DNA of 64,000 bases from Coxiella endosymbiont of Dermacentor marginatus (lineage in GTDB: Bacteria; Pseudomonadota; Gammaproteobacteria; Coxiellales; Coxiellaceae), in assembly GCF_907164955.1 (NCBI RefSeq), contig NZ_OU015521.1:372001-436000 (forward strand), read 5' to 3'. Of the stretch, positions 6,279 through 10,645 are shown one piece after another; within the stretch, counting starts at the first letter, position 1; each line of letters begins with the position of its first letter. The position numbers were made by a program, and so were the translations under genes. The notes beneath the pieces were generated by a model that saw nothing but the letters and a program-made list of their open reading frames with translations, made no database searches and had not been told where the DNA came from.

Positions 6279-7062
6279 GAAATTAGCTCATAAAATCTAT
6301 TTATTTATGTAGGGTACGGGAAAGGAACTTCCAACACAATAAAAAATCTTCATGTATTAAAAAGTCTTTAAAATTGGTAAGTTATTTTTAATGTCGATAT
6401 GTATAAAAGTCGATATGATTGACAATAGGAATAATATATAACCATCTAATATTGAAATCTGTGCTCCAGCATTAGGCCTCCTCCCATAAATACATGATTG
6501 ATGCAGATACCGAAACAGCAGAAGAACATTCAACATCATCGACGAGCGAATCGTGCAACGAATAACAGCTCTTAACGTGTTAGTAAACGCATAAAATCCA
6601 GAGGAAGCTTAATTGGATCTGCATTTACGAGAAAATTATATGCATAAATTACATATATGGAAAGATAAAAAGAGTTATGGCGAAAATTATAAAGATGCAT
6701 ACCTTTAAAATAACTATTGTATTAAGGAAACGAGTTATAATTAACTTAAGAGATAAAATTTGGCTAAATTTCATAACTCAAGATGGATCTATGTAAAAAC
6801 GGCAGCCAATTAGAGTGTGAAGAAAATAGTAAGAATCATCATTATATCATCCCCTTAGTAATTAAAACTGATTTCAATTGATGTTATTTAGCTTAACGAT
6901 GCTTAAGCAGAATAGATATTCATATCAGAAGGAAGAAAAATTATTAAATTTAAAATGATTAACAAGAAGTGTTTTGTTTAAAAATGATGACCAATTAAAA
7001 TAGCTAACACCAATAATGTAGCTAATTTTTTAGTGCATTATTTAATAATCTATTACTAATTA

Positions 7063-7118
7063 TCAATCTTAGAAAACTCCTCGCCATTTAGAAATGGCGA
7101 GGAGTTTTCTAAGATTGA
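7063..7118. repeat. Perfect 27-bp inverted repeat with a 2-base loop
   Basis: Arms 7063-7089 and 7092-7118 are exact reverse complements, with loop AG at 7090-7091. The stem contains ACTCCTCGCCATTT, richer in GC than its surroundings. No U-tract follows on either strand, so it is not a standard intrinsic terminator. Confidence 0.92.
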
Positions 7119-7206
7119 GAGTATGTGATAAATGCTCATACTGACACTTCAGATCGGTAAGGTTACATGTTACAGATTCCATCGAAAATGCACTTTATTA
7201 AGCATC

Positions 7207-7249
7207 ATTACAATCCTAAACATATTAACAATATGTTTAGGATTGTAAT
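7207..7249. repeat. Perfect 20-bp inverted repeat with a 3-base loop
   Basis: Arms 7207-7226 and 7230-7249 (ATTACAATCCTAAACATATT and its complement) flank loop AAC. It lies 88 bases from the 27-bp hairpin at 7063 but is unrelated in sequence. Confidence 0.92.
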
Positions 7250-7957
7250 TACATATACCTTCTCATTCAATTAGCAACCTAATATTAACAATAGTGAGTG
7301 GAACATTTATAAAAAATAGAGTCACTCAGAGCTGTACATTCACTTTAGTTTGAATGCACCAAGTTTTCATTACCCTTCTGAAAAAGCTAGCAAAAACTAT
7401 CCTGAATGATGGTAGAATGCTGAGGAAAAAGCAACAATGATCAATAGGATTAATTTTCATTTTCAAAATGCTTTTAAAATGAAAATGAAATAGGGTGAAA
7501 TAAGGGGAAAACGAGAGCAAGATGATTGAAGTGGCAGTTCCATTAATTTCATATCTTATAACACTGTTCTCTAGCACCTATACATAATGTTACATGAAAA
7601 TGTAATATTTAAGATATATCATCTGCGATTCGGATTTCTATTATAAACTGTCAGAGAAAATTTAAATTCTCTTCTTTAAAAACAGTAAGAAAGTTACATT
7701 AATTTATCGATACTGTGATATGTAAGTAGTCCTACAATAATTAGGATTAGTATTTGATTCTTATCAATTATAATACGTTTGGAATACTAAAGGGTGTATT
7801 TGCCTTCCCATATGGGTTCTGCTTTCTTAAAAAACTTTACTATAGCTTTTTAAGCTTAGGCTTTATTAATGATTCAATATTAATTTCTTGCTATGAGAAT
7901 CAATGATGGATTAATTATATTGCTTAATTTATAGGATTCCTTATCATCCGGTATTAT

Positions 7958-8751
7958 CTAATTGTCCTTTAGCGCATTACTGATTTTTACAAAATCCTCT
8001 ATCAACAATTCTTGAGGACGTGATTGAGAATTAACGTTTATCTTATTCCATTTTTCACTGGGTATTAATTTTGCAAGCGCATTGGCGATTGTTTTTCGCC
8101 GATGAGTGAACGCCTCTTTGACAATGACACTGAATTGATTCAAATCCTTTACAGTTTTAGTTCTATTTTTTTGTGGAATTAAGCGTACAAAAGCCGATTC
8201 TACTCCCGGGAGAGGAGTAAAAGCGTTAGGAGGCACGTTAAATAAAAAGGTATTATCACAAAAAAACTGAGTCATGATGCTTAAACGGCCATAATTTGCG
8301 TTGCCTGCTAGAGCAGTCAACCGTAACACAACCTCTTTTTGGAGCATAAAATGCATATCCTCAATAAGCTCAACCTGAGAAAATAAATGAAAAAGTAAGG
8401 GAGTTGAAATATTGTATGGTAAATTACCTACAATACGCAGTGGCTTATTTGCGATCTTTAAGTCCGAAAAATCAAATTGTAATGCATCTGATTGATAAAT
8501 AATCAATTTTTTTGAAGAAGGGTATTTTTTTTTAAAAAGGCCACAAGATCTCGATCGATTTCTATCAGAATTAATTTAGCATATTCCCATTTGTTGATTA
8601 AAAAATCAGTTAATGCGCCTTGACCAGGCCCAATTTCTATTATCGTATCCGTTTTTTTAGGGCAAATGGCGTTAATGATTTTATCCAAAATAACGGAATC
8701 TTTAAGAAAATATTGGCCAAAACGTTTGCGTGGTAGATGAAATCCATTCAT
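7958..8751 (-). pseudogene. rsmA: 16S rRNA dimethyladenosine transferase, frameshifted in a poly-A tract
   Basis: KsgA/RsmA dimethylates A1518 and A1519 of 16S rRNA. The gene is split into two frames: 8751 down to ~8500 ([41 protein letters not shown]) and the remainder to 7958 ([50 protein letters not shown]). The break is at a run of nine A (template T at 8525-8533). One extra A restores one frame of 264 aa reading [18 protein letters not shown] across the junction, close to the family length (E. coli 273). SAM-binding and catalytic NLPY motifs are intact on either side. It may be a recent pseudogene, a gene rescued by RNA-polymerase slippage, or an assembly error. It overlaps the pdxA stop (ATGA). 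Confidence 0.9.
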
Positions 8752-9674
8752 GCGATATTTTCTGCTAATTTTATTGCTTTAATTAAGCTTTTTTCATCAG
8801 CCAATCCGGTTCCTGCAAGATCAAACGCTGTTCCGTGGTCTACAGAAGTCCGTATATAAGGCAAGCCTAGTGTCATGTTTACCACGTGACCGAATTTTAA
8901 AGCTTTAATTGGTGCTAATCCTTGATCATGATACATTGCTAAAATAGCATCGCAATTCTTAATTACTTTAGGTGTGAATGCAGTGTCTGCTGGGAATGGA
9001 CCCACAAGAGAAAAACCCTCCTGATTAAGAGTTTTAATAACAGGAATAATTGTTGATAGTTCTTCTTTTCCTAAATATCCCTCTTCACCTGCATGAGGAT
9101 TTAATCCGCATAAGGCAATAGTTGGTGTTTTAATTGAAAAATATTTTTTAAGACCTGCATGCAAAAGTCGAACGCATTTTTTTAAAGACGATTTTTTAAT
9201 TAAAGTGTGGACTTGAGATAAAGGAGCATGTGTCGTATACAAAGCTACTTTTAAATCATCTGCTACAAAGAGCATTACGGTTTGTCTCACATTTGCATGT
9301 GCTGCTAGCCATTCAGTATGGCCAGTAAAAGGAATGCCGGCACTATTTATGATTGTTTTGCTTACAGGACCTGTCACTAGAGCTTTAAAATTTCCATCTA
9401 AACAACCATCCGCAGCAATCTGGAGTGTTTCTAAAATATATTCCGCATTAGCAGGGGTTGGTTTCCCAATTACGGAACGTATTTTTAATGGAACATGATA
9501 TATTGTCAAATTATCAGGCACTTCGAGTCCAATCGCTTTTGCTCTTTCCATTAACAAGGTGCGATCAGCAATGACGATAAAAGAAATTGGAAGCTTGTAT
9601 TGTAACAGCTTTATTACAATATCTGGCCCAATGCCTGCAGGCTCTCCCAATGTAATAACGATAGGTGTCATCAA
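8748..9674 (-). CDS. pdxA: 4-hydroxythreonine-4-phosphate dehydrogenase
   Basis: NAD-dependent step of DXP-dependent pyridoxal 5'-phosphate synthesis; 308 aa (E. coli 329). Motifs: [13 protein letters not shown] at the N-terminus, [21 protein letters not shown] with a metal-ligand His, [10 protein letters not shown], and [13 protein letters not shown] with another metal-ligand His. Coupled by a 4-base ATGA overlap to surA upstream and by ATGA to rsmA downstream, the same operon order as E. coli. ATG at 9674 is followed immediately by a second ATG; either could initiate. Confidence 0.95.
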
Positions 9675-10645
9675 GAATTAATGTAAATTCGAATGTAAGA
9701 AGAACGGCGTAATTGCCACAGCCATTGCCGCAATGCCTTTTCAAATTTTTGTTGATACACAGCCTGTTGAATTTGCTGACTATGACTATTAGGCATATCT
9801 TGAATCTCTTTACCGAGTAATTTAATGAGATGGAATCCATTGGAAGCTTGTATCGGACCCACGACCTCATTAAGTTTTATTTTTCTGATGGAGCTTGCAA
9901 AGATCTGAGGAAGATCACTAATCAATCGCCATCCGAGATCACTACTGCCAGGATAAGTAGACATTACATATTTAAAATCTAACCCTTTACGAAGTTGTTT
10001 TAAAATTAAGAAGGCTTTGTATTTTGCATGATCAATTTGAGCTTGAGTAGTGCATTCAGTTACTGGAATTAATATTGTGGCTATATGATAACGAGTAGAA
10101 GCAATTTGAATTCGATGTTGCTTTCGAAAAGCAACAATGTCCGATTTGCTAACAGTGATATTGTTAGCAATTACTTGCTGTTGTAATTTGGAAATAAGCA
10201 ATTGTTTTTGTATTTGGTTACGAAATTCCATGTAAGAGATACCTTCTTGCTGCATGAGCTTTTCTTTGAGAGATGATTGAGACAGTTGATTTTGAGCTGC
10301 TATTCTAGCAATAGTCGTGTTTATTTCTTCATCGCTGGCTTTCAGTTTGTTTCGTTTAGCTAACTGTAATTGCAATTTTTGATAGATCAATTGGTTTATC
10401 ACTTGTTTTCGAAAAACCTTTTTATTGGATATAGAAATATGATTCTGAGTGAATTGTTGTTTTGCAATCGCTAGGGAATGATTAAATGCGCTTTGAGTAA
10501 CAATTTCGTTGTTGACTATTAGAGCGATTTGATCGAGAAGTTTCTCCTTTGTAGTGTTAGGTTTAAGCAGAAGAGATTGAGCCATGCTAGAGATGCTTAT
10601 AGTAAGAAGAAACATCATGATTAAATAGATTATTGTCTTTAACAT
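9671..10645 (-). CDS. surA: Periplasmic chaperone / parvulin-type prolyl isomerase SurA
   Basis: Escorts outer-membrane proteins, including LptD, across the periplasm. 324 aa, about 100 shorter than E. coli SurA (428). A signal peptide occupies ~1-22 (hydrophobic, ending SSMAQS). The N-terminal chaperone domain (DQIALIVNNEIVTQSAF..., ~38-170) is followed by one parvulin domain (~184-285; IATILIPV, then SDLGWR, VGPIQASNGFHLIKLL) and a C-terminal helix. Only one parvulin repeat is visible where E. coli has two, so the protein looks naturally shortened while keeping the chaperone parts. It starts 38 bases after lptD and overlaps pdxA. Confidence 0.9.
   Translation of the reverse strand: MLKTIIYLIMMFLLTISISSMAQSLLLKPNTTKEKLLDQIALIVNNEIVTQSAFNHSLAIAKQQFTQNHISISNKKVFRKQVINQLIYQKLQLQLAKRNKLKASDEEINTTIARIAAQNQLSQSSLKEKLMQQEGISYMEFRNQIQKQLLISKLQQQVIANNITVSKSDIVAFRKQHRIQIASTRYHIATILIPVTECTTQAQIDHAKYKAFLILKQLRKGLDFKYVMSTYPGSSDLGWRLISDLPQIFASSIRKIKLNEVVGPIQASNGFHLIKLLGKEIQDMPNSHSQQIQQAVYQQKFEKALRQWLWQLRRSSYIRIYINS

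Follow-up and report, generated by a model that had tools for sequence, protein, structure and literature searches.

Frameshifts in poly(A) tracts are rescued by transcriptional slippage in the insect symbionts Buchnera and Blochmannia (Tamas et al. 2008, as presented in PMC5009743 and PMC3017870). Corrected transcripts of such genes amount to 12-50% (PMC5009743), and Blochmannia vafer has eight frameshifted poly(A) genes (PMC3017870). Nine A or T residues permit high-efficiency slippage by bacterial RNA polymerase, and in dnaX of Thermus thermophilus slippage takes place at a nine-base A/T run (PMC5009743). The dnaX gene of Escherichia coli instead uses a -1 ribosomal frameshift at A_AAA_AAG, and A_AAA_AAA is a weaker -1 site in this species (PMC5009743). 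Two reports count against rescue: a transcriptome-wide survey of Buchnera found no frame-restoring transcription errors (PMC5574713), and the RNA polymerase of E. coli is less prone to slippage on A tracts than on T tracts (PMC6260861).

Here we describe an rsmA (ksgA) gene interrupted at a run of nine A (A9) in a Coxiella-like tick endosymbiont. The genome (G000) is a single contig of 901,206 bases (0.90 Mb) with a completeness of 99.96%, and the window is the 64-kb stretch of it that was analyzed (G000:C1:372001-436000). The closest named relative, as judged by pdxA, is the Coxiella-like endosymbiont CLERM (77%). Of the readings considered below, the most likely, which we hold at roughly even probability, is that a real single-base deletion has produced a leaky, self-rescuing frameshift and that rsmA probably retains some expression, at a lower level.

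Structure of the interrupted gene

The minus strand carries surA, pdxA, and rsmA in that order, with rsmA running from 8751 to 7958 (Table 1). Frame 0 is open from the ATG at 8751 for 82 aa and closes at a TGA (8505-8503), 8 codons past the A9; the -1 frame has no stop between the A9 and the natural one, TAG (7960-7958). In the sense direction the tract reads GCC TTT TTA AAA AAA AAT ACC, and the addition of one base to it gives a continuous reading frame. The interruption proposed in the original prediction is thus confirmed by the frames, as well as by matches of both halves to the family. The N-terminal part matches NCBIfam TIGR00755 at profile positions 3-71 (2.1e-19) and the solved RsmA 3tqs, which we take to be the Coxiella burnetii protein, at chain residues 4-76 (3e-24). 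The C-terminal part matches the same profile at positions 79-256 (6e-52) and the same chain at residues 78-254 (8e-76). The motifs that had been listed as kept are in place, with GPGQGALT and FGQYFL 5' of the A9 and NLPYN 3' of it in the other frame. The features of the RsmA/KsgA family (the SAM-binding loop GxGxG, NLPY, and a full-length profile match) are therefore all present, divided between complementary, adjoining halves in two frames. The 16S helix 45 target of the enzyme, GGGGAACC, is unchanged in the window genome, which says nothing about RsmA activity.

Table 1. Features of the rsmA region and of the split bioB gene (positions are those of the window unless another locus is named)
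Feature	Position	Strand	Remarks
rsmA/ksgA 5' part, frame 0	8503..8751	-	82 aa, FGQYFL and SAM-binding loop; TIGR00755, 3tqs
A9 tract (T9 on the + strand), frame-change site	8525..8533	-	contains U_UUA_AAA and A_AAA_AAA
rsmA/ksgA 3' part, -1 frame	7958..8506	-	ORF listed from TTG 8506; NLPYNIS and C-terminal domain; TIGR00755, 3tqs
pdxA, upstream neighbor	8748..9674	-	intact; overlaps rsmA start
surA	9671..10645	-	intact; named from sequence, compared with relatives
bioB piece	L139:11572-12237 (G000 about 761.6-762.2 kb)	+	split biotin synthase
bioB piece	L140:3123-3542 (G000 about 798.1-798.5 kb)	-	split biotin synthase

The stop codon TGA and a TTG in the -1 frame overlap (ATTGA, 8503-8506), an arrangement by which coupled re-initiation could yield a separate C-terminal part that would form an active two-piece RsmA with the 82-aa N-terminal part. 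We regard this as highly improbable, since the Rossmann core would be cut, TTG seldom serves as a start, and such an arrangement is absent from the reliable congeners; we also know of no split RsmA.

Selection, copy number, and conservation

The dN/dS of rsmA in G000, taken against five relatives (G001, G003, G004, G005, and G006), is 0.15-0.30 before the A9 and 0.14-0.19 after it, with most values below 0.2. The neighboring genes give 0.12-0.24 (pdxA) and 0.19-0.28 (surA) against the same relatives. Both halves of rsmA are under purifying selection, indicating selection that lasted until recently or continues now, and a normal dN/dS is equally expected with a recent lesion. Of the rsmA sites that are invariant elsewhere, G000 alone differs at 1/35 and 4/92, fewer than the corresponding counts for G003, G005, or G006. 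Among 101 core genes, rsmA ranks at the 81st percentile for protein rate along the G000 lineage, with no clear acceleration. No second lesion was found in rsmA besides the A9 break, and with these selection statistics the earlier statement that the rest of the gene shows no decay holds.

The interrupted gene is the sole ksgA in the window genome. The other weak matches, to ORFs of 183 and 253 aa, cover the profile only in part and were rejected as a second copy. Among the other genomes of the genus, ksgA is intact in eight of nine, including two reduced genomes of 0.62 and 0.66 Mb, and it was matched in 55/55 relatives searched, the match being weak in two draft genomes. The A9 frameshift is shared by 0/8 reliable congeners and is known from one genome of the species.

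These results bear on the second-ranked reading, which we consider somewhat unlikely: a real and recent null mutation, by which rsmA is newly dead, the loss of 16S dimethylation is tolerated, and decay is to follow. E. coli ksgA mutants tolerate this loss, and a lesion that is recent enough would leave no signal in the selection statistics. The genome is also actively reducing. Its sampled coding density is 65%, versus 81-82% in G005 and G006, and together with long ORF-free gaps this suggests that it is in mid-reduction; decayed genes such as a PBP2-like one are present. The lack of further damage in rsmA and its conservation in the congeners, the smallest included, argue in the other direction, and a tract of nine A should let through a certain amount of corrected product irrespective of selection for it.

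Other observations in the genome concern the same process of reduction. Long stretches lack ORFs of at least 100 aa, among them positions 6279-7957 of the window. The PBP2-like gene (L141:14362-15809) has several frame changes relative to G006 and is apparently a true decayed pseudogene.

Quality of the assembly

Frame integrity in G000 was assessed on a sample of about 464 kb compared with the ORFs of G005 and G006, in which 199-206 core genes were covered in one frame. Only two clean breaks at a single homopolymer were found, the rsmA A9 and a T9 in a cvpA-like gene. Inside intact genes, 53/53 long A/T runs are in frame (13 runs of 9-11 and 40 of 8), and the clean breaks are confined to the longest tracts, a pattern expected for replication slippage and equally for residual homopolymer error. 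With about 200 genes intact and 53 runs kept, the assembly has a low error rate, which makes random read error less likely. The three options named in the original prediction (fresh death of the gene, expression by slippage, and a wrong read) were the right set, and it is the last of these that has lost ground.

A sequence or assembly error, with one base of the tract missing from the record and the organism's own gene in frame, ranks third, and we judge it unlikely. Long homopolymers attract errors, and both of the genes with a clean single lesion have it at a run of 9. Finishing was also imperfect, as seen at a contig-like join that carries two tandem duplications of 55 bp, and the apparent second case of a ksgA frameshift, in the congener G007, is itself taken to be such an error. 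However, none of the 40 runs of 8 is broken, all 13 of length 9-11 keep the frame, and completeness is high. The rate of homopolymer error would furthermore be low if this sequence is that of CLEDm from Dermacentor marginatus, a 0.9-Mb genome obtained with a protocol resembling an Illumina/SPAdes/Bandage one (PMC12152204).

The ksgA of G007 has a -1 frameshift at an A6, about 8 codons downstream of the site in G000. Apparent frameshifts occur in 34/106 sampled G007 genes, likely including rpoB and rpoC, versus 0 among 73 loci in its sister G002, and convergence between the two ksgA genes was dropped on these grounds. As apparent frameshifts affect about one-third of the G007 genes sampled, its ksgA break is taken as sequence error and lends recurrence no support. 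This assembly is an unsafe basis for inferring gene loss, and assemblies like it are not independent support for frameshifts.

Two further loci were recorded in the course of this comparison. The cvpA-like gene (L138:2693-3194; G000 about 707.7-708.2 kb) has a T9 near L138 3018-3030 versus a T8 in G006; with a single frameshift in an otherwise intact gene, it may be another case of slippage at a tract or of error. The gene for biotin synthase, bioB, is split; its N- and C-terminal pieces lie on opposite strands with about 36 kb between them, and the two 55-bp tandem duplications flank the C-terminal piece. These duplications resemble contig ends left untrimmed at k=55 and suggest assembly from short reads, a few of the joins being imperfect; no duplications of this type were found within the 64-kb window. 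The bioB split is probably an assembly misjoin and otherwise a true inversion that breaks the synthesis of biotin, a B vitamin reportedly supplied by tick symbionts.

Origin of the tract

At the site of the lesion, relatives have sequences such as TTA CAA AAA AAA TAT (G005) and TTA CAA AAT AAA TAC (G001), and the window genome reads TTA AAA AAA AA/T AC. The first codon of the tract encodes Q in the relatives, except for E in G002, and the missing base may therefore be a C rather than an A. Thus, of the claim that one extra A restores the protein, the restoration of the frame by one base stands, while the identity of the lost base does not necessarily follow. Two histories may be drawn from the alignment. 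In one, a C-to-A change (Q to K) may have given an A10 from which one A was lost, by way of a mutation-prone tract; in the other, which the original prediction overlooked, deletion of the C from TTA CAA AAA AAA may alone have turned A-C-A8 into A9 in a single step. The data fit both histories, and neither is preferred.

Possible routes to a full-length product

Under the most likely reading, that of a leaky frameshift, the loss of one base from the A-rich linker that follows the acidic EID motif would have thrown the sole ksgA out of frame and left the A9. RNA polymerase would slip on the nine A's and add one A, so that part of the transcripts would be corrected. Alternatively or in addition, ribosomes may shift by -1 at U_UUA_AAA_AAA. 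This second route was missed in the original prediction, which had considered slippage by the polymerase; it uses the same tract and is predicted to give the same full-length RsmA, with ...LKKKYPSS... across the junction. An 82-residue truncated product would be made alongside. Since the A9 would correct itself in a fraction of the products, rsmA probably retains a reduced level of expression.

For the polymerase route, the locus has a lone frameshift in a run of 9 within an otherwise intact gene, and it shows purifying selection and a normal rate, which would be the same if the lesion is recent. For the ribosomal route, U_UUA_AAA and A_AAA_AAA both lie in the phase of frame 0 and have the form X_XXY_YYZ of a -1 shift site. 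The predicted folding of the 95 nt that follow the tract is no stronger than that of shuffled sequences (z = 0.58), giving no sign of a downstream stimulatory structure, and the presence of both tRNA-Lys(UUU) and tRNA-Lys(CUU) in the genome counts against this route. A more elaborate proposal, which we consider doubtful, joins the second history to both routes: deletion of the C would have made its own slippery tract (A1 plus A8 giving A9), polymerase and ribosome would both restore the frame, and such lesions would be retained as partial knock-downs.

Comparison with known systems

Should the A9 prove real and leaky, tolerance of poly(A) frameshifts would extend from insect symbionts to the Coxiella-like symbionts of ticks and would reach a ribosome-maturation enzyme. 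For annotators, this would recommend caution before such genes are declared dead. A literature search, which was not exhaustive, found no reports of poly(A)-frameshift rescue in Coxiella-like symbionts and no literature linking ksgA to Coxiella-like endosymbionts.

The A9 of rsmA is a further case of a phenomenon that has already been described, and nothing indicates programming or regulation. It resembles the cases in Buchnera and Blochmannia in being a single-base frameshift in a long A run, within a conserved and otherwise intact gene of normal rate in an AT-rich symbiont. It differs from them in the Coxiella-like tick lineage, in the gene affected, and in the possible loss of a C, and it is known here from the DNA of one strain. 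With dnaX of T. thermophilus it shares the run length of nine and the switch of frame by one added A; there, however, slippage is programmed and two products are needed. The heptamer of rsmA is of the same class as that of E. coli dnaX and is in the right phase, although it is A_AAA_AAA, has no stimulatory hairpin that we could find, and occurs in a genome where tRNA-Lys(CUU) is also present.
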